DNA of 52,282 bases from Rhodospirillales bacterium. Lineage in GTDB: Bacteria > Pseudomonadota > Alphaproteobacteria > Acetobacterales > Acetobacteraceae. This document shows positions 14,600 to 24,690 of the stretch, in pieces. Location of the stretch: the NCBI GenBank assembly GCA_028869595.1, contig JAGWRU010000001.1, positions 1 through 52,282 on the forward strand, given 5' to 3'. Position numbers and translations under genes: made by a program. The notes under the pieces are model-generated. The model was given only the letters and a program-made list of their open reading frames with translations. It did not search any database and was not told the origin of the DNA. Position 1 is the stretch's first letter, and the number at the start of each line of letters is the position of its first letter.

Positions 14600-15784
14600 T
14601 TACCGCCCGGCATGCGCCGTCATTGCCGCCCGGCCACCCGATGCCAGCACGATGTCCCCGGCGCCCGGGCGGAGGGATGGGCCGGTGGCGGATGGCTTCG
14701 CTGATCCCGGCGGCTGCGTCGCGGCCTTTGCGATGGTGCCGCCGGGTCGGGCCGGCCAGGCCAGATCGCAGCGCATGCGGGCCGGCGCCTGGCCCAGGCA
14801 GGCGGCGAGGCGTGTCGTCAGGCGTGGCGCGCCGCGCGGATTGAGGTGCGAGAAGCCATCGCCGAAATACCGGTCGGGCCAGGCGGTGAACAAGGGTGCT
14901 ACGATGTGAAACCCCGGATAACGCGCGGCATAGCCGGCCAGATAGGCGGCAAAGCCGCGCCGCAAAGCGGGCGCGATCGCATCCCCGGTGGCGCGGTTGA
15001 CCGGCATCGCCAGAAACACCGCCGCGACATGGTGCCGGGCGAGCAGCGTCAGCATGCGGTCGAAATAGAAATCCAGGATCGGCAGGGCACGGAAATCGCC
15101 CAGCGCGGCATCTTCGGCCACTATGTCGGATCGGTCGGCGGTGCCGAAGAAATACTGCCCGCCGGCAGCACGCACCCGGGCCAGCACGCGGCGATTGCGC
15201 CATAGCCGCAGGAATACCCCGCCATGCACCAGGTTGGCGGTGTAATGCGACGGAAAATGCACTTCGTACAGCCAGGCGCGCAGCCGGGCCGGCACGCCAT
15301 CGGTATTGCGCAGCGCATAAAGCGATGGGTCGCCGAGCCGGGCCGAGGCGCGGCGCAGCCCGGCCAGATCGCGGCCTTCGACGAAGCCGAAGCGCACGCT
15401 GCGTTCCCAGAACAGGTCGGGGCGCATGAAATGCCCGGGATCGAGAGAGATCACCACCAGCTTCGGCGCGCGCGGGCAGGCCAGCGCCCGGCGCAGCGCG
15501 GCATAGGCCTCGATCGTTTCGCCGCCGCCGATGGCCAGATTGCTGACCGCGACCGGCAGGCGCGCCGGCATGATATCGGCGGCGGCGCGCGAGTCGCCGA
15601 CCACCAGAACCGGCGCCAGCGCGCAGCGATGCAGCATCGCGATCTTCACCGCCCAGGCCGGGTATTCGCGATCCAGGAAGGCCATCGGCATGGCCAGCAC
15701 CCAGACCCAGATCAGCGCGAGCGTCAGGCCGGCAGCGGTGAAGGCGGCGGCGAAGAAGCGCGGCGGAGAGAGCGGCGCGGACAT
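14600..15784 (-). CDS. SGNH-hydrolase-like membrane-anchored protein of the ACP-MBOAT cassette (DltD/AlgJ-like role)
   Basis: 394 aa. A single N-terminal membrane helix (about residues 10-33) is followed by an exported domain. VLVVGDSRAA (residues 59-68) provides the nucleophile Ser65 in a GDS motif, and DGFSHLNPRGA (Asp309, His313) supplies the acid and base. Such proteins pair with MBOAT acyltransferases to place acyl groups on extracytoplasmic glycans. ATG at 15784 is chosen as the first residue before the helix; the frame continues open upstream but inside the MBOAT gene. It lies 13 bp after the MBOAT stop. The last 70 residues are Pro/Gly-rich and low complexity. Confidence 0.75.
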   Translation of the reverse strand: MSAPLSPPRFFAAAFTAAGLTLALIWVWVLAMPMAFLDREYPAWAVKIAMLHRCALAPVLVVGDSRAAADIMPARLPVAVSNLAIGGGETIEAYAALRRALACPRAPKLVVISLDPGHFMRPDLFWERSVRFGFVEGRDLAGLRRASARLGDPSLYALRNTDGVPARLRAWLYEVHFPSHYTANLVHGGVFLRLWRNRRVLARVRAAGGQYFFGTADRSDIVAEDAALGDFRALPILDFYFDRMLTLLARHHVAAVFLAMPVNRATGDAIAPALRRGFAAYLAGYAARYPGFHIVAPLFTAWPDRYFGDGFSHLNPRGAPRLTTRLAACLGQAPARMRCDLAWPARPGGTIAKAATQPPGSAKPSATGPSLRPGAGDIVLASGGRAAMTAHAGR

Positions 15785-15797
15785 GCCCTGCCGCGCT

Positions 15798-17351
15798 TCA
15801 GAACTGGAAATAGAGGAATTCGCTGGTGCCGCCGACCGACAGCAGCGCCGCCATCGCCGCAACGCCGCCGGCCAGCGCCCAGGGCAGGCTGAGCCGAAAG
15901 CGCAGCCGGCTTGCCGCGCCTTTGCCGGCCTCGCCCATGATCTGCTGGGTGGTCGGGGCGAGAAAGATGATCGCATACAGACCGCCCAGCCACAGCCAGG
16001 CGACGGCATGATGCCCCGCTGCCACCAGGCTGGCGCCGACCAGCAACCCGTGCCCGTCCGAGGCAATGAATGGCAGCGCCACATGCCTCACCCCGTGCCT
16101 GCCTGCCATCGCCGCCAGCATCGCCCATGCCGCCCCGTCGGAGGGCGCGCGAAACAGCACCGTGCCGACCAGCACGCCCAGATAGGTCAGCGCCACGCGG
16201 CACAGACGGGCGGGCCGGCGCGACGATGGCCGGCGCGGCCCGAAGCAGCGCCAGGCGTGGTTCACCGTCAGCAGCGCCGCATGCCACAGCCCGAACAGCA
16301 GATACTGCCAGCCGCTGCCGTGCCAGATGCCGGCCAGGGTCATGGTCACAAGGAGGGGCATGGCCAGCGTCTCGGTGAAGCCGCCAAGGCTCGTCGCGCC
16401 GGGCCGCTCCGGTATCTGCCCGCGCGCGCCGCGCCGGCGGGCGGCGGCCATCGCCAGCGGGTTGAACAGATAAAGGGTCAGCCAGCGGGTCAGCGTCATA
16501 TGCCAGCGCTGCCAGTAATCGATCACGCTTTCGGCGCGGTAGGGCGCGTTGAAGTTCTGCGGGAAACGCAGGTTGAACATCCGCGCCAGCCCGATCGCCA
16601 TGTCCGAATAGCCCGAGAAATCGAAATAGAGCTGCAGCGAATAGGCCAGCACGGCATGCCAGGCGGCGAAGGCCGACAGCCCGCCCGGTGCGGCGAAGCC
16701 GGCGCCCGCTGCCGGCCCCAGCGGATCGGCCAGGGCGCATTTTTTCAGCAGGCCGATGGTGAAGATCGCAGCCCCGGCAACCAGGTTCTGCCCGTCCGGC
16801 CGGGCGATGGCGGGGTTGCGGAATTGCGGGATCATCTCGCGGTTGGACAGGATCGGCCCGGCGATCAGATGCGGAAAGAACGTCACGAACAGCAGATACG
16901 CAAGCGGGCCTTCCGCGGGCGCAAGCCCGGCGCGACGATCGATCAGCCAGCCGATCTGGGTGAAGGTGAAAAAGCTGATGCCCAACGGCAGGGCGATCGC
17001 CGGTAGCGTCGGCACCGAACCGAACGCCGCATGCAGCGTGCCCAGCAGATCGGCCAGGTATTTGTAGCGGATCAGCAGCGCCAGATTGGCCGCGATCCCC
17101 AGCCCGAGGAACAGGCCTTGCCGCGCGGGTCTGGCCTCGGCCGCGCCGATCAACCGTCCGCAGGCGTAATTGCCGGCGATCGAGGCGCCCAGCAGCAGCA
17201 GATAGGCCGGGTTCCACCAGCCATAGAATACCAGCGAGGCGAGCAGCAGAAAGACCAGCCCGGCCCGGCCGGACAGGCGCGACAGGGCGAAGAAACCGGC
17301 CAGGCTGAGCGGCAGGAACGCCAGCAGGAACACGTAGGAGTTGAACAGCAT
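15798..17351 (-). CDS. MBOAT-family O-acyltransferase (AlgI/DltB type), first copy
   Basis: 517 aa multispanning membrane protein. Family hallmarks are the N-terminal MLFNSYVFLLAFLP, GISFFTFTQIGWLID, LYFDFSGYSDMAIGLARM, the conserved His284 in YWQRWHMT and the catalytic His344 in GIWHGSGW. It ends in EFLYFQF, as AlgI-type proteins do. These enzymes move an acyl group from a cytoplasmic donor across the membrane. The donor here is probably the acyl carrier protein encoded 11 bp upstream, and the SGNH protein 13 bp downstream the final transferase. The acceptor glycan is unknown. Confidence 0.9.
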   Translation of the reverse strand: MLFNSYVFLLAFLPLSLAGFFALSRLSGRAGLVFLLLASLVFYGWWNPAYLLLLGASIAGNYACGRLIGAAEARPARQGLFLGLGIAANLALLIRYKYLADLLGTLHAAFGSVPTLPAIALPLGISFFTFTQIGWLIDRRAGLAPAEGPLAYLLFVTFFPHLIAGPILSNREMIPQFRNPAIARPDGQNLVAGAAIFTIGLLKKCALADPLGPAAGAGFAAPGGLSAFAAWHAVLAYSLQLYFDFSGYSDMAIGLARMFNLRFPQNFNAPYRAESVIDYWQRWHMTLTRWLTLYLFNPLAMAAARRRGARGQIPERPGATSLGGFTETLAMPLLVTMTLAGIWHGSGWQYLLFGLWHAALLTVNHAWRCFGPRRPSSRRPARLCRVALTYLGVLVGTVLFRAPSDGAAWAMLAAMAGRHGVRHVALPFIASDGHGLLVGASLVAAGHHAVAWLWLGGLYAIIFLAPTTQQIMGEAGKGAASRLRFRLSLPWALAGGVAAMAALLSVGGTSEFLYFQF

Positions 17352-17362
17352 CCCGGCTCGGC

Positions 17363-17617
17363 TCAGGCGGCGGAAAGGACGGATTTGGCCCGGATCAGCT
17401 GCATCAGGGCACCGACATCGTGCATCGCTTCGATCTCGCTGGCGTCGAAGGCGATGCCGAACCGGCATTCAGCCTCCACCGCGAGCGAGATCTGGGCGAG
17501 CGAGTCCCAGGCCGGCAGCGCATCGGGACTGCTTGCCTTGGTCAGTTCGATCGTCGCATCGCCCAGCACGTCGCGGAAAATCGCAGTGAGACGGGAGAGC
17601 AGCGCATCGTCATCCAT
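17363..17617 (-). CDS. Acyl carrier protein of the MBOAT cassette
   Basis: 84 aa. Phosphopantetheine attachment serine is Ser39 in PAWDSLAQI, in the place where standard ACPs have DSL. The protein is acidic and has the helical pattern of an ACP. The ATG at 17617 has GGAG six bases upstream. Being the first gene of a tight ACP-MBOAT-SGNH operon, it is likely a dedicated donor, functionally like DltC, rather than the fatty-acid synthesis ACP. No DltA-like adenylating ligase lies nearby, so the source of its acyl group is unknown. Confidence 0.85.
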   Translation of the reverse strand: MDDDALLSRLTAIFRDVLGDATIELTKASSPDALPAWDSLAQISLAVEAECRFGIAFDASEIEAMHDVGALMQLIRAKSVLSAA

Positions 17618-17961
17618 CCGAGTCTCCGCCGGCTGCGCGGTTGCCACGATGGCGAGTGCAACAGAGCGGGATGACCAAAGCGCTAATTTCGCGGTGTCCG
17701 ACCCTGCCTGGCTGGTTGTGGAACCGTCGCATTCGGTGGGAGCCGGGCCACGGAGAGCCAGGGAATCCGCCCCATGCATCCGCCGCGCATCCGCCGGCGC
17801 CGCCGGCGCGTAAGGCGCATATGAATGGTTGCACTCTTTCCCTGCCCGGCATGGCCGGTACCGGCGTGATGGATGCCCTGGTGCTGCGGCGGGATGCGGG
17901 TCGCTTGTTGCGCCGGGGCTCGGGGCGCTATGGTCAGGTCTTCCCACTCCCCGCCGGACCA
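17618..17961. other. 344-bp divergent region between the ACP cassette and the sigma factor
   Basis: This stretch should hold the promoter of the ACP cassette (minus) and that of the sigma factor (plus). A direct repeat GCATCCGCC occurs twice, 2 bp apart, near 17777-17796. On the plus strand GGAACC near 17722 resembles an ECF -35 box, but I find no convincing -10 partner. An ATG at 17821 with AAGG five bases upstream is in frame with the sigma factor and would lengthen it by 47 residues. No other gene is supported. Confidence 0.4.
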
Positions 17962-18582
17962 GTGCGTCGCGGCGGAGTTCGACGCGAGGCCACCCTGAAC
18001 GATACGCGCCGCCCCCCCGGTTCGGAGCAATCCGACCCTGCCGACCCAGCCGATCCGCCGATCGCAGCCCTGCTGCTCGGCTGTGCCCGCAAGGACGAGG
18101 CGGCGTTTCGCGCGCTTTATCGGCGCGAAGCGGCGCGGTTGCACGGCATTGCGCTCCGGATCACCCGCGAACGGGTGCTGGCGGCGGATGCGGTGCATGA
18201 TGTGTTCGTCAGCATCTGGCAGCACGCCAGCGCTTTCGACCCGGCGCGCGGCGCCGCCGAAGCCTGGTTGACCTCGATCGCCCGCTATCGCGCGCTGGAT
18301 ATCGTCCGCCGGCGGGCGCGGGAAGTGACCGGCGCGGAACCGCCGGAAGTCGCCGACCCCGAGCCGGATGCGCTGACCCGGCTGGCCGGCACGGCGGAAG
18401 TGGCGGCGCTGCGTCGCTGCCTCGACCTGCTGGATACGGAAAAGCGCCGGCTGGTGACGATGGCGTTTCTCGACGGGCTATCGCATAGCGAGCTGGCAAC
18501 CCGGCTGGGTATGGCACTGGGCACCGTGAAATCCTCCATCCGGCGCGGTCTCGCCGGTTTACGCCGGTGCCTGGAGCCATGA
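17962..18582 (+). CDS. ECF-type RNA polymerase sigma factor
   Basis: About 206 aa from GTG 17962. Region 2 is clear: FRALYRREAARLHGIALRI, then DAVHDVFVSIW, then AWLTSIARYRALDIVRR. Region 4 has LDTEKRRLVTMAFLDGLSHSELATRLGMALGTVKSSIRRGL, a typical helix-turn-helix. It overlaps the anti-sigma gene by 4 bp (ATGA). The start is uncertain: GTG 17962, CTG 17995 (with GAGG six bases upstream) and ATG 17821 are all in frame, and the conserved domain begins near 18058. It is divergent from the ACP-MBOAT-SGNH operon, which is a candidate target. Confidence 0.88.
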   Translation: MRRGGVRREATLNDTRRPPGSEQSDPADPADPPIAALLLGCARKDEAAFRALYRREAARLHGIALRITRERVLAADAVHDVFVSIWQHASAFDPARGAAEAWLTSIARYRALDIVRRRAREVTGAEPPEVADPEPDALTRLAGTAEVAALRRCLDLLDTEKRRLVTMAFLDGLSHSELATRLGMALGTVKSSIRRGLAGLRRCLEP

Positions 18583-19337
18583 GCGACAGCCCCGAGGACC
18601 GCGATCTGCTGGCCGGCATCTACGTGCTGGGCGTGCTCGATCTGGAAGAATGCCGCACGGTGGAGGATATGGCGCGTCTCGATCCGGCGATGGCCGAGGC
18701 GATCGAGGCCTGGCAGAACCGTCTCGCGCCGCTGGCCACGCTGGTCACCCCGGTCGCGCCGCCGCCGATACTGTGGCCGCGCATCGCCACCAGCCTGGGC
18801 ATCGAGGCCGCGCCGCATCCGCTGCCGGCGGCGCTGGGCCTGGTCCAGGCCGATCCTTCCGGCCAGACCGCCTTGTCCGGGCAGGCCGCGCGCCGGCCAT
18901 CGGTGGCCGGGCGGGTCTGGCGTTCCACCGGATTCTGGCGGGGCAGCACGGCGGCCGCGCTGGCGATCGCCGCCGGCATCGCCGCGTTCGCCCTGTTCCA
19001 GCCGCCGCCGCCACCGCGCTTTACCGCGGCCCTCGCGCCGCTGCATGCGCCAGGGGCCGCCTTCATCGCCGAGACCGAATCCGATGGTGCGCTGCTGGTG
19101 CGCCCGATCGCACCCGTTTCGGTGCAGCCGGGCAAGGATCTGGAATTGTGGGCGCTGGCGCCGGGGGCAAAGGTGCCGCGCCCGCTCGGCGTGCTGCCGG
19201 CCATCGGCAAGCGCGTGACGGGGCTGAAGCTCGCGGCCGATACCCAGATCATGATCAGCCTGGAACCGCAAGGCGGATCGCCGACGGGCTTGCCGACCGG
19301 CCCGGTGCTGTGGGCCGGCACGCTGGGCAAGCTGTAG
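18579..19337 (+). CDS. RskA-type anti-sigma factor
   Basis: 252 aa. The N-terminal cytoplasmic domain (about residues 1-85) starts DLLAGIYVLGVLDLEE, as in the ZAS-like domain of this group but without zinc ligands. A single membrane helix spans about residues 121-140. The periplasmic RskA C-terminal domain contains LELWALAPGAKVPRPLGVLP and ISLEPQGGSPTGLPTGPVLW, which is diagnostic. It should hold the co-encoded sigma factor at the membrane until an envelope signal triggers proteolysis. Translationally coupled to the sigma gene. Confidence 0.88.
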   Translation: MSDSPEDRDLLAGIYVLGVLDLEECRTVEDMARLDPAMAEAIEAWQNRLAPLATLVTPVAPPPILWPRIATSLGIEAAPHPLPAALGLVQADPSGQTALSGQAARRPSVAGRVWRSTGFWRGSTAAALAIAAGIAAFALFQPPPPPRFTAALAPLHAPGAAFIAETESDGALLVRPIAPVSVQPGKDLELWALAPGAKVPRPLGVLPAIGKRVTGLKLAADTQIMISLEPQGGSPTGLPTGPVLWAGTLGKL

Positions 19338-20515: not shown

Positions 20516-20998
20516 ATGACGATCAAGGTCGGCGACAGCATCCCCTCCATGAAATTGATGATGGGTACGGCGGATGGACCGAAGGAAGTGTCCACCGACA
20601 ATCTGTTCAAAGGCAAGAAGGTCGTGATGTTCGCCGTGCCGGGCGCCTTCACCCCGACCTGCTCGGCCAAGCATCTGCCCGGTTTCGTCGCCAATGCGGC
20701 GGCGCTGAAGGCCAAGGGCGTCGATACCGTGGTCTGCGTCGCGGTGAACGATGCCTTCGTGATGGGCGCCTGGGGCAAGGACCAGGGCGTGGGCGATGGC
20801 ATCGTCATGCTGGCCGATGGCTCGGCGGCGCTGACCAAGGCGCTGGGGCTGGAACTCGATCTCGTGCCGCGCGGCATGGGGGTGCGCAGCCAGCGCTACG
20901 CGCTGATCGCCGAGGACGGCAAGGTGACGCATCTCGCCGTGGAACCGCCCGGCGGGTTCGAGGTGAGCAAGGCGGAGTCGATTCTGGCCGCGCTGTAG
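20516..20998 (+). CDS. Peroxiredoxin, Prx5/AhpC-TSA-like (glutathione-dependent type)
   Basis: 160 aa. The peroxidatic cysteine is Cys49 in PGAFTPTCSAKHLPG, the signature of the Prx5 subfamily. DAFVMGAWGKDQG and GMGVRSQRYALI complete the family pattern. It reduces hydrogen peroxide and alkyl hydroperoxides, normally with glutathione and glutaredoxin. AGGGAGA precedes the ATG. A single-gene unit, with mliC divergent upstream and DUF2218 convergent 22 bp downstream. Confidence 0.93.
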   Translation: MTIKVGDSIPSMKLMMGTADGPKEVSTDNLFKGKKVVMFAVPGAFTPTCSAKHLPGFVANAAALKAKGVDTVVCVAVNDAFVMGAWGKDQGVGDGIVMLADGSAALTKALGLELDLVPRGMGVRSQRYALIAEDGKVTHLAVEPPGGFEVSKAESILAAL

Positions 20999-21020: not shown

Positions 21021-21326
21021 TCAGGCGGGCGCCGCGGCCCAGGCCAGCGGCGCCGCCTCGCGGAAGGCGAAGCGCAGCAGGTGGCGCTCGACCACGTCCT
21101 GCAATGTGCCCAGCGTCGCCGCATCCGGGGCGTCCAGATGCAGCACCAGCGCCTCCGCCTCGGCGCGGGCGATGCAATGCCCGCTCGGGAAGGCGATGCG
21201 GCCTTCGCTCTCGCCCTGGGTGACCGGCAGGCGATGGGCGAAATGCTTGCATAATTGCCCGAGATAGCGCCGCGCCATCGGGGTGGCGAAGCGCGCCTCG
21301 GCATGGGCAGGGAACAGCGCGTCCAT
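21021..21326 (-). CDS. DUF2218 protein
   Basis: 101 aa. It matches the DUF2218 pattern: ARFATPMARRYLGQLCKHFAHRLPV, GRIAFPSGHC, then VVERHLLRFAFREAAPLAW. DUF2218 domains often occur with siderophore-interacting (YqjH-type) proteins, but no such protein is next to it here. It is the second gene of a unit with the His-rich PadR regulator; its ATG shares one base with the PadR stop (TGATG). A role in metal homeostasis is inference from the neighbour and family. Confidence 0.85.
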   Translation of the reverse strand: MDALFPAHAEARFATPMARRYLGQLCKHFAHRLPVTQGESEGRIAFPSGHCIARAEAEALVLHLDAPDAATLGTLQDVVERHLLRFAFREAAPLAWAAAPA

Positions 21327-22081
21327 CAGATCTGCTCCACGGCAGTGGCGGCGGCATCGATGGCGGCGGCGATGGCGTTGGTTGCCGCCTCGTCGGGGCG
21401 CGCGCGGGCCAGGCGCAGACGCAGCGCCAGTTTGAGATTTTCCATCGCCCGCAGGATCTGCGGCGCCGGTCCGTCGCCCTGGATGCGCGCCGCCTCGTCC
21501 ATGCGCGCGAGCAGGGCGTCGCGCATCGCCGCATTGGCGGTCAATTGCGCCTCGCCTTCCGCCGTGATGGCGTAGAGTTTGCGCGGGCCCTCGCTGCTGG
21601 CGCTGACCTGTCCGGTTTCCTCCAGCAGCGTCAGGGTCGGGTAGATCACGCCCGGGCTCGGGCTGTAGGTGCCGCCCACCCGTTCCTCGATCGCCTTGAT
21701 GATCTCATAGCCGTGGCGCGGCTTTTCGGCGATCAGATGAAGGATCACCAGGCGCAGATCGCCATGCGCGAAGAAGCGCCCGAGCCGGCCGGCGGGGCTG
21801 TCGCGGTGATGTTTCGGGCCGTGATGCTTGTGCTCGCCGTGCTTGTCGTCGTGATGGCGGTCGTCGCGATGCTTGGCCCCATGGTGCTTCGGGCCATGGT
21901 GCTTCGGGCCGTGATGCTTGGGGCCGCGATGCCGGACGTCATGCGCGTCCCCTTCATGGGCCTCGGGGCCGTGCGCCTGCGGGTCATGGGCGAAGCGCTG
22001 TCCGCCAGGCGCGGCGCTGGCCGGCGCCGAAGCGTGGGGGCGGCGATGGGCGTGGAGATGATGGCGAAGCCGATCGAACAT
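21326..22081 (-). CDS. PadR-family regulator with histidine-rich N-terminal extension (YqjI-like)
   Basis: 251 aa. Residues 1-95 are rich in His, Lys, Asp and Pro, with HHGPK repeated four times or nearly so, a likely metal-binding segment. The PadR winged helix follows: GRFFAHGDLRLVILHLIAEK, HGYEIIKAIEE and the SPSPGVIYPTLTLLEE motif. The last third is helical and dimer-forming. The layout and the RFF-HG-LRLVIL segment match E. coli YqjI, a nickel-responsive repressor. The ATG has GGAG seven bases upstream. A strong inverted repeat overlaps its promoter, so autoregulation is expected. Confidence 0.85.
   Translation of the reverse strand: MFDRLRHHLHAHRRPHASAPASAAPGGQRFAHDPQAHGPEAHEGDAHDVRHRGPKHHGPKHHGPKHHGAKHRDDRHHDDKHGEHKHHGPKHHRDSPAGRLGRFFAHGDLRLVILHLIAEKPRHGYEIIKAIEERVGGTYSPSPGVIYPTLTLLEETGQVSASSEGPRKLYAITAEGEAQLTANAAMRDALLARMDEAARIQGDGPAPQILRAMENLKLALRLRLARARPDEAATNAIAAAIDAAATAVEQI
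21805..21929. repeat. In-frame 15-bp repeats encoding HHGPK units
   Basis: Tandem 15-bp units of the form ATGGTGCTTCGGGCC (plus strand) run from about 21875 to 21925, with degenerate copies from about 21805. They encode the HHGPK repeats of the PadR N-terminus. The nearly identical neighbouring units suggest recent slippage expansion, so repeat number may vary between strains. Confidence 0.7.
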
Positions 22082-22099
22082 GGGGCAACTCCGAGTGTG

Positions 22100-22132
22100 T
22101 TTCGATATAACGAAAAATAAGATATATCGAAA
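22100..22132. promoter_or_regulatory. PadR operator and promoter
   Basis: TTTCGATATA (22100-22109) and TATATCGAAA (22123-22132) form a perfect inverted repeat with 10-bp arms and a 13-bp spacer. On the minus strand TTTCGA (22132-22127) and TATATC (22109-22104), 17 bp apart, can serve as -35 and -10 of the PadR gene. The arms therefore cover both promoter boxes, the arrangement expected of an autorepressor. Confidence 0.75.
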
Positions 22133-22150
22133 TCCATCCGCTTCAAGGGG

Positions 22151-23209
22151 TCAGTGTCGCCGCAGCAGCGCGAAGGCGATCGATCCGCCTTCCTCCCCCG
22201 GCGGCCGCGGGCAGACCTCCCCGGCCGGCAGGGGAATGGCCGGCGCCGGACCCGCCATCACCCCGAGCAGCGGTGCCAGAGCGCGCGCCACCAGCACCGA
22301 ATGGGCGATCTGGCAGGGCTCGCTGAGGTGATCGGGCGTGTCGAAGAAATCGGCGCGCGGATAGCGGCTGTGATTGGCCAGGACCAGAAACCCTGCCCCG
22401 TGCGCGCGATACAGTGCGGCGATCGCGGTCAGTGTCGCGGGCGGGATCGGGCTGTCGGCAAATCCCGTCGGCAGGCCGCCGATCGCCGTTATCCCGTGAT
22501 TGCGCGCCCAGTCGAGGAAGGTTGCGATCTCCCGGCTGCCGAAGCCGTTGCGCACCTGCCGGGCGCTGGCATGCCAGGGCTGGGCGGCGGCCAGCGCAGG
22601 GCGGTCGATCGCGCCCAATGCCGGGCTGTGCCCGACATGATCGCCCCAGCGATTCGAAGCCCCTTCCGTCATGGCGCGCGGATCGTGAAATCCGCCGGCC
22701 ACCAGCGCGGTTTCGATGCCGCTCATGATCGCCCCGTTCAGATCGCCGGAAAACGCCGCCCCCAGCCAGCGGCGCGGGCCTAGCCGGGCGAGCTTGCGCC
22801 AGTCATGGCGGAACAGGATCGTCGCGTCCGGGCCCAGCCCGGAAGCCGCCCGTCCGCGCGCATACTGCGCCTCCTCCATCGGTAGATAGACGGCATCGCC
22901 CGGATGCAGCAGTGCCTCCCAGTCCAGGAACAGCGTATCGAGGCCGATCCCCACCGCGACGCCGGCATTGATGCAGGGCCGGTGCAGCATCGTCCCGATC
23001 ACCTGGCAGCGATGCGAATAAGGCCCGTTGGAGCCGGCCAGGATCACCAGCTTCGGCCCGCGCGCCGCTGCCCCCTCGGCCAGCCGGGCGGCGATCTGGG
23101 CGCGGATGAAGCCGAGCGTCAAAGGCCGGTCCAGCACGCAGGCGAAGGCCGTCCAATAGAGCAGCAGCGACAATGCGCAGGCGCCGAGCAGCCGGGCGAA
23201 AGGACGCAT
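22151..23209 (-). CDS. SGNH-like protein of the second MBOAT cassette
   Basis: 352 aa. An N-terminal signal anchor (about residues 7-26) is followed by an exported domain. VILAGSNGPYSHR (residues 55-67) places a serine (Ser60) where SGNH enzymes have GDS, here in a GSNG form. A late DTPDHLSEP segment offers Asp290 and His294 at the same spacing as in the first cassette. The start shares one base with the MBOAT stop (TGATG), so the two are co-translated. Probable role: final transfer of an acyl group to an extracytoplasmic polymer. The two SGNH proteins are only distantly alike. Confidence 0.7.
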   Translation of the reverse strand: MRPFARLLGACALSLLLYWTAFACVLDRPLTLGFIRAQIAARLAEGAAARGPKLVILAGSNGPYSHRCQVIGTMLHRPCINAGVAVGIGLDTLFLDWEALLHPGDAVYLPMEEAQYARGRAASGLGPDATILFRHDWRKLARLGPRRWLGAAFSGDLNGAIMSGIETALVAGGFHDPRAMTEGASNRWGDHVGHSPALGAIDRPALAAAQPWHASARQVRNGFGSREIATFLDWARNHGITAIGGLPTGFADSPIPPATLTAIAALYRAHGAGFLVLANHSRYPRADFFDTPDHLSEPCQIAHSVLVARALAPLLGVMAGPAPAIPLPAGEVCPRPPGEEGGSIAFALLRRH

Positions 23210-24690
23210 CAGAACCGGAAATACAGGAACGGCGCGACATGCGGGGCGAAGAACAGCCCCTGCATGGAAAGCGCAAATCCCGCCACCAGCGCGCGCATCT
23301 GCCCGTTGCGGCGCATGCGATGCAGCGAAGGCAGAAACAACACGATGGCCCAGCCCAGTGCCAGCAGCGCCACGGCCTGGGGCAGGGCCAAAGTGCGGGC
23401 ATCGCCGAGATGGGCGAGCATGGCGACCGGGCGGAAGAATGGCTGGACCCAGGGCAGGGCGCGCCAGATCATCGCCGGCAGGGCGCAGCCATTCAGCCCG
23501 GCCAGGCCGCGCAGCATCGCCCCGCTTGCCGCCATGCCCTCGGCGCGGAACGGCACCCAGGCGAGGATCACGGCGGCGAGCGTCAGACATTGCGCGAGCA
23601 GCCCTGGCAGGCGCAGCCCGAGGCGCCGCCAGAGACGCTCGGTGATCAGAAACACCCCGTGCAGACCGCCCCAGAGCACGAAACGCCAGGCCGCCCCATG
23701 CCACAGCCCGCATAGCAGCATGGTGGCCATCAGGTTGCAGCCCGCCCGCCATGCCCCGGACCGATTGCCGCCGAGCGGAATATAGACGTAGTCGCGCAGA
23801 AACCGGCCCAGCGTGATATGCCAGCGGCGCCAGAAATCGCCGATGCCGCGGGCCTGATAGGGGCTGTCGAAATTCAGCGGAAACCGCACGTTCAGCATCC
23901 GCGCCAGGCCGATCGCCATGTCGGAATAGGCGGAAAAATCGAAATAGATCTGCAGGGCATAGGCGAGCGTGGCGACCCAGGCCTCCAGCAGGCTCGGTTG
24001 TGCGCCGGCGGCGGCGGCGGCGAAGCCGGGATCGGCAAGGGCGCCGAAGGCATCGGCCAGCACCAGCTTCTTGGCCAGCCCGAGCAGGAACAGCGTCGCC
24101 CCCGCCGCCAGTGCCTCCGCATCCGGGCGGGCCAGGGCGGGGCGGCGAAGCTGGGCGATGATCTCCGCCGGGCGGACGATGGGCCCGGCGATCAGATGCG
24201 GGAAGAAGGCGATGAAGGCGGCATAGTCGCGCAGATTGCGCGCCGGGCAGCCGCTGCGCGCGGTATCGACCAGAAACATCACCTGCTGGAAGGTGAAGAA
24301 GCTGATCGCCAGCGGCAGCACGATGCCGCTGGCCGGCGCCGCCCGCCCCGTGAGCGCGCCGGTAAGCGCGGCGAGGCTGCCCCACACGAAATCGGCATAT
24401 TTGAACACCCCGAGCAGGCCGAGATCGAAGACCAGCCCGACGATCAGCCAGCGCCGCGCGCGATTGCCGGGGCGGGCCGCGTCGATCCGCCGCGCCAGGG
24501 CATAATTGACCAGAATGGAGCCGCCCAGCAGCAGCACATAAGGCGGGTTCCACCAGGCATAGAACACCAGACTGCCGCCAATCACCGCCGCCAGCGCGCC
24601 ACCCACCCCGCCCCATCGCCCGGCCAGAAAAAAAACCGCCAGCATCGCCGGCAGAAAGCCCAGCACGAAAACCGGCGTATTGAACAACAT
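23209..24690 (-). CDS. MBOAT-family O-acyltransferase, second copy
   Basis: 493 aa multispanning protein. It begins MLFNTPVFVLGFLP and contains LAISFFTFQQVMFLVD, FFPHLIAGPI, IYFDFSAYSDMAIGLARM, His291 in FWRRWHIT, the VYIPLGGNR loop of AlgI, and the catalytic His331 in GLWHGAAW. It ends in FLYFRF. It is closer to the AlgI/PatA pattern (IPLGGNR present) than the first copy, which lacks that loop. The gene is coupled to the SGNH gene, but no ACP accompanies this cassette. Confidence 0.9.
   Translation of the reverse strand: MLFNTPVFVLGFLPAMLAVFFLAGRWGGVGGALAAVIGGSLVFYAWWNPPYVLLLGGSILVNYALARRIDAARPGNRARRWLIVGLVFDLGLLGVFKYADFVWGSLAALTGALTGRAAPASGIVLPLAISFFTFQQVMFLVDTARSGCPARNLRDYAAFIAFFPHLIAGPIVRPAEIIAQLRRPALARPDAEALAAGATLFLLGLAKKLVLADAFGALADPGFAAAAAGAQPSLLEAWVATLAYALQIYFDFSAYSDMAIGLARMLNVRFPLNFDSPYQARGIGDFWRRWHITLGRFLRDYVYIPLGGNRSGAWRAGCNLMATMLLCGLWHGAAWRFVLWGGLHGVFLITERLWRRLGLRLPGLLAQCLTLAAVILAWVPFRAEGMAASGAMLRGLAGLNGCALPAMIWRALPWVQPFFRPVAMLAHLGDARTLALPQAVALLALGWAIVLFLPSLHRMRRNGQMRALVAGFALSMQGLFFAPHVAPFLYFRF

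Follow-up and report, generated by a model that had tools for sequence, protein, structure and literature searches.

A predicted NfeR-type PadR regulator in a two-gene unit with a stand-alone DUF2218 gene

The closest described relative of the locus reported here is the NfeR (YqjI)/NfeF (YqjH) pair of Escherichia coli, which shares with it a PadR winged helix, a histidine-rich N-terminal extension and an operator with the core GATATATC at the regulator's own promoter. The accessible part of one report states that repression by NfeR is relieved by nickel and that NfeR homologues have been implicated in nickel resistance by fitness screens (PMC7981267). PadR-NfeF pairs are also found in Variovorax, Acetobacter and Roseomonas; these match our locus in regulator type, in operator box and in the slot downstream of the regulator, but their partner gene encodes a flavin reductase. 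The partner described below instead belongs to DUF2218, a widespread family without an assigned function. Members of the same Pfam family, such as MllG, occur in siderophore clusters, where they differ from our gene in sitting among siderophore genes, and in the accessible part of the report on the methylolanthanin locus, which includes a DUF2218 gene, a role in regulation or transport was suggested (PMC11317620). In the literature searched, which falls short of most subscription papers, we found no description of a padR-DUF2218 operon and no work joining DUF2218 to PadR, and searches on SMa0974 and on His-rich nickel PadR proteins returned nothing useful.

Layout of the locus and features of its regulator

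The padR and DUF2218 genes follow each other on the minus strand of the window (the whole stretch of DNA analyzed, 52,282 nucleotides; Table 1), which belongs to a genome assembly of 3.44 Mb that is 86.7% complete. The family of this genome, which also contains Roseicella, is Acetobacteraceae or Roseomonadaceae according to the taxonomy followed. The PadR stop codon and the DUF2218 start codon overlap by 1 nucleotide (TGATG), an arrangement of translational coupling. Since the next gene downstream, encoding a redoxin (positions 20516 to 20998), lies on the other strand, the unit consists of two genes and, as the earlier note had stated, DUF2218 is the only gene coupled to the regulator. Whereas E. 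coli nfeF, which encodes an NADPH ferric reductase, is divergent from nfeR, the partner gene here runs in the same direction as padR. On the upstream side, a reading frame ends at position 22151, leaving some 70 bases for promoter and operator. Further afield in the window, positions 14600 to 17468 and 22151 to 24690 hold apparent paralogous pairs, each with an MBOAT acyltransferase-like frame followed by a second minus-strand frame (the MBOAT at 23209 to 24690 was confirmed by Pfam, and the other MBOAT-like frame was judged by eye), and positions 17641 to 19337 encode an ECF sigma factor and, after it, an anti-sigma factor of the RskA type.

Table 1. Features of the padR-DUF2218 unit, in window coordinates
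Feature	Positions	Strand	Basis
DUF2218 gene, stand-alone, 101 aa	21021..21326	minus	Pfam PF09981
PadR repressor gene (NfeR/YqjI-type, predicted)	21326..22081	minus	Pfam PF03551, alignment
Operator box 2, TTTCGTTATATCGAAA	22100..22115	minus	17 bp from box 1
Operator box 1, TTTCGATATATCTTAT	22117..22132	minus	Same box in E. coli nfeR/nfeF intergenic region
Putative -10 element TATCTT, inside box 1	22119..22124	minus	Placed from conserved TTG
Putative -35 element TTGAAG, outside the boxes	22141..22146	minus	Conserved TTG in relatives

In a Pfam search, the regulator matched PF03551 at 71.2 bits (cut-off, 27) over residues 113 to 181, the winged helix, which is preceded by a His-rich extension (residues 1 to approximately 101) and followed by a helical C-terminal part. 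No fewer than 25 histidines fall within the first 101 residues, against just 3 in the remaining 150, and the HHGPK motif has three exact copies (residues 56, 61 and 86) along with variant forms at residues 51 and 66; the description of the protein as a His-rich PadR with HHGPK repeats was therefore accurate. Identity to E. coli NfeR amounts to 39% in an alignment that includes 22 relatives. The entire window PadR, extension included, is free of cysteine. Given that the extension of E. coli NfeR contains seven cysteines, the metal bound and its coordination geometry may differ between the two proteins. However, since a Cys-free extension was found in 58 of 106 related PadR loci (of the 109 described below, 3 lacking the alignment anchor were left out), we did not treat cysteine in this region as a defining property of NfeR/YqjI.

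Operator boxes and promoter

An exact inverted repeat, TTTCGATATA-N13-TATATCGAAA, is present at positions 22100 to 22132. It is the sole match in the window at up to three mismatches (none in 100 shuffles), and the 33-bp sequence is unique across the whole 3.44-Mb assembly (86.7% complete). This repeat had been put forward as a single perfect operator; while its exactness and uniqueness hold, its reading as one long unit was rejected, with both the box scan and the spacing in related loci favoring two boxes. It is better read as two 16-bp palindromes resembling TTTMGATATATCKAAA, placed 17 bp apart, a spacing in which the locus differs from E. coli nfeR/nfeF, and the 33-bp repeat arises because the outer halves of these two adjacent boxes pair up.

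We scanned 109 related PadR loci (29 from relatives, 78 named loci, the window's own and that of E. coli; L041 and L063 had been removed as duplicates of the loci L008 and L012, with identical PadR proteins in L008 and L041) for the palindrome TTWMGATATATCKWAA, allowing up to three mismatches. The scan returned 186 matches in the 42,054 bp around the PadR starts versus 5 in the 919,371 bp elsewhere, and 107 of the 109 loci carry at least one box close to the PadR start, the exceptions being L019, where boxes lie further upstream, and L110. Among 20 permuted control palindromes (range, 0 to 135 matches), the highest-scoring one, a near-copy of the true box, yielded 135 matches in 97 loci; the second highest yielded 37 and the others 0 to 11. 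Neighboring boxes were most commonly spaced 17 bp apart (39 pairs), followed by 16 bp (5 pairs). In E. coli K-12, ATTAGATATATCTAAT precedes nfeR and ATCAGATATATCTAAA precedes nfeF, both with the same box consensus as the window.

The presence of one and the same box at nfeR/nfeF and at nearly all related PadR genes places the window regulator with NfeR/YqjI, and the likeness to YqjI proposed in the earlier note is borne out beyond mere resemblance. By domain, tail and operator, the protein is a predicted NfeR-type PadR, and its predicted DNA target is that of NfeR. Judged from sequence, this common operator is stronger evidence of kinship than the His-rich tail. In its own genome (86.7% complete), no second box pair was found, nor any other single box at one mismatch, so that the genome shows one box target, namely, padR itself together with DUF2218. 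The further operator targets that had been anticipated, such as a YqjH homologue, did not appear.

A strict sigma-70 scan returned no promoter in the padR upstream region, so the promoter in Table 1 is a prediction from conservation. In all, 105 loci were aligned on box 1 (4 of the 109 had no usable box 1 and were dropped). The clearest upstream element was a TTG, enriched 14 to 15 bases upstream of box 1 and present in 45 of the 105 loci; in the window, it corresponds to a putative -35 element, TTGAAG, separated by a 16-base spacer from a putative -10 element, TATCTT. With the former outside the boxes and the latter inside box 1, the operator would cover the -10 and start region but not the -35 element, and the earlier view of a repeat lying over both promoter boxes is doubtful.

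Partners of related PadR regulators

Using profiles for DUF2218 and for NfeF-like reductases on all reading frames of the 109 loci, we assigned DUF2218 as the partner in 37, a reductase in 24, both in none and neither in 48 (in 4 of which the sequence downstream of PadR is absent). All 37 DUF2218 genes lie directly downstream of padR on the same strand, in taxa that include Acetobacteraceae, Azospirillum, Caulobacteraceae, Sphingopyxis and Xanthobacteraceae. The reductase occupies the same downstream, same-strand slot, at no more than 107 bases, in 20 of its 24 loci; of the others, one lies at 512 bases, two are upstream on the same strand and that of E. coli is divergent. Were the two partners independent, a complete lack of loci with both would be expected with a probability of about 1e-5, a value that serves as a guide only, given that the loci are related and the genes compete for the slot; the mutual exclusion could partly stem from this sharing of one slot. 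A quick tree of the 109 PadR sequences, in which 42 of 106 inner branches are weak, implied at least six changes between DUF2218 and reductase partners, and swaps are seen among close relatives, with a reductase in Roseomonas and DUF2218 in Falsiroseomonas and Belnapia. The comparison shows that predicted NfeR-type regulators are not tied to NfeF. Moreover, because 85 of the 109 loci lack a linked reductase, such a gene is characteristic of the layout in E. coli and not of the regulator family. The notion of a reduced metal-response module is therefore only partly apt: the locus does lack a reductase partner, but the padR-DUF2218 pair is a recurrent alternative to the padR-reductase pair (37 versus 24 loci) and not an odd reduction.

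Among the loci with neither partner, 28 of 44 have a first downstream frame that runs opposite to padR (with neighbors crudely called), and a scan of ten upstream frames revealed no common family except between near relatives. In three loci (L083, L102 and L110, from Herbaspirillum and Accumulibacter), padR is followed by a different small gene, possibly a third partner, which we take by eye to resemble one encoding a DUF3861 protein; two boxes in Herbaspirillum are separated by 27 bp. In two Edaphobacter loci (L047 and L065), padR is divergent from a gene of the phosphatidate cytidylyltransferase family, with boxes near the PadR start.

A reductase hidden elsewhere in the window's own genome (86.7% complete) was considered and rejected, as a profile search gave no match to PF08021, PF04954 or PF06276. 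We extended the survey to the genomes of 120 relatives, this one included. In 41 of the 120, PadR was matched at 75 bits or higher, and DUF2218 adjoins PadR in 16 of these 41. Of these 16 genomes, 12 have no FAD_binding_9 reductase, a count that rests partly on incomplete genomes, and 4 do have one (G010, G103, G110 and G112). In the 25 genomes without a PadR-adjacent DUF2218, a reductase was found in 12, in 11 of them near a PadR match (among these 11, the match in G006 spans only 34 residues and that in G008 scores 72 bits). A reductase anywhere in the genome is not significantly rarer in the genomes with a PadR-adjacent DUF2218 (4 of 16 versus 12 of 25; P = 0.20). With 12 of 16 genomes lacking such a reductase, DUF2218 can mostly not be an accessory to it, and substitution fits better.

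DUF2218 and its proposed role

The DUF2218 protein matches PF09981 at 99.4 bits (cut-off, 29.1). Its AlphaFold2 model (mean pLDDT, 91.4) had a single strong structural match, PA4090 of Pseudomonas aeruginosa (PDB 2jpi; TM-score, 0.78; 32% identity), which shares its fold and is the one solved structure of the family that we found; weaker matches to phosphoglucomutase-like and spermine synthase domains say little. Three histidines stand out in PadR-linked DUF2218 proteins: H28 and H31 are kept in 40 of 40 sequences and H82 in 39 of 40, the one miss being a row that ends early. Each is also kept in 12 of 13 other DUF2218 sequences, and the plasmid examples discussed below have histidines at the same positions. 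The protein lacks a flavin domain, which rules out an NfeF-type reductase activity.

On these grounds, we propose, with moderate confidence, that the locus is a two-gene operon of the NfeR kind, in which metal-relieved autorepression governs an iron-handling DUF2218 protein that substitutes for NfeF. Without metal, PadR would occupy both boxes over the -10 and start region and repress padR-DUF2218, presumably by blocking polymerase. Binding of a transition metal to the His-rich extension (nickel by analogy with NfeR, or possibly iron or cobalt) would release the repressor from the DNA, upon which both proteins would be made. Less certainly, DUF2218 would then do the job that NfeF does in E. 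coli, sustaining the iron supply under metal stress; its three conserved histidines might serve for this as a binding site for iron or a ferric siderophore, in place of flavin-dependent reduction. Such handling of iron or ferric siderophore is the most economical reading of the predicted function. That a flavin-free, three-His DUF2218 has repeatedly replaced NfeF under NfeR control in this capacity is a broader proposal, which we advance only tentatively. If it were true, one regulon would have arrived at two different chemistries, each exchangeable for the other, for coping with the same metal stress. The combination of a conserved operon, a sensor with a characterized E. coli member, a defined operator and a recurrent exchange with a reductase whose activity is known opens the way to direct tests of DUF2218 function.

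The company that DUF2218 keeps elsewhere bears on this proposal. In relatives, profiles identify five open frames that hold both DUF2218 and a reductase, and coordinates point to one more (G010). Among the five fused domains, H28, H31 and H82 are kept in four, three and four cases, respectively. In L134, L135, L139, L143 and L144, DUF2218 forms the N terminus of a siderophore-interacting reductase, with no NfeR-type boxes nearby. The gene preceding two fully read fused frames presumably encodes a siderophore-binding protein, to judge by eye. Among ten plasmid DUF2218 loci, taken from 40 listed of 167 records, four are surrounded by siderophore synthesis or uptake genes; of the remainder, one has DUF2218 immediately preceded by a gene annotated as PadR, two are annotated without such a link and three are unannotated. 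Fused frames and siderophore loci together support the linkage of DUF2218 to siderophore reductases stated in the earlier note.

The same observations weigh against two other functions. DUF2218 might detoxify or store nickel or cobalt in a metal-resistance operon with an indirect link to iron, an idea that draws on the 25 histidines in 101 residues of the sensor and on the implication of NfeR homologues in nickel resistance by fitness screens (PMC7981267); since DUF2218 outside the operon turns up at siderophore loci and as a fusion partner of ferric-siderophore reductases, we regard this as quite improbable. We also consider it unlikely, if somewhat less so, that DUF2218 serves PadR itself as an anti-repressor, co-repressor or metallochaperone rather than as an iron-handling effector. 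Its translational coupling to the regulator, the restriction of box targets seen in the genome to padR and DUF2218, and a weak match to the SMa0974 family conjugal transfer regulators (NCBIfam NF049882; 29.7 bits, below the cut-off of 80) would suit such a cofactor, but 72 of the 109 PadR relatives have no DUF2218 alongside, and siderophore loci as well as reductase fusions provide examples of DUF2218 with no PadR next to it.

Finally, a few plasmid loci connect the box to DUF2218. DUF2218 is preceded by a PadR frame and by two boxes both on an unannotated Shinella plasmid and on one of Agrobacterium; an Azospirillum plasmid record holds a third PadR frame, without a box. With the two loci that have a box-preceded PadR set aside, the box is absent in seven of eight plasmid DUF2218 loci, and, among 12 loci with a stand-alone DUF2218 gene and no PadR next to it, just one has the box. 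This single case, one of the two loci annotated without a siderophore or PadR link, is plasmid p1 of Novosphingobium sp. ES2-1, on which no PadR match was found (the search covering that plasmid only) and where one NfeR-type box lies immediately in front of a lone DUF2218 gene (L180:4941-4956), with TTGACA 16 bases before TATCTT, a geometry like that of the window. The arrangement is a hint that the box may by itself target DUF2218, and the lone gene is possibly regulated in trans. This also touches on the idea that the linkage is incidental, with an autoregulated PadR and a passenger gene that have no function in common. Although the 48 loci with neither partner would suit such a passenger, the invariable placement of DUF2218 (37 of 37) across several taxa and the box in front of the lone Novosphingobium gene make it highly improbable.
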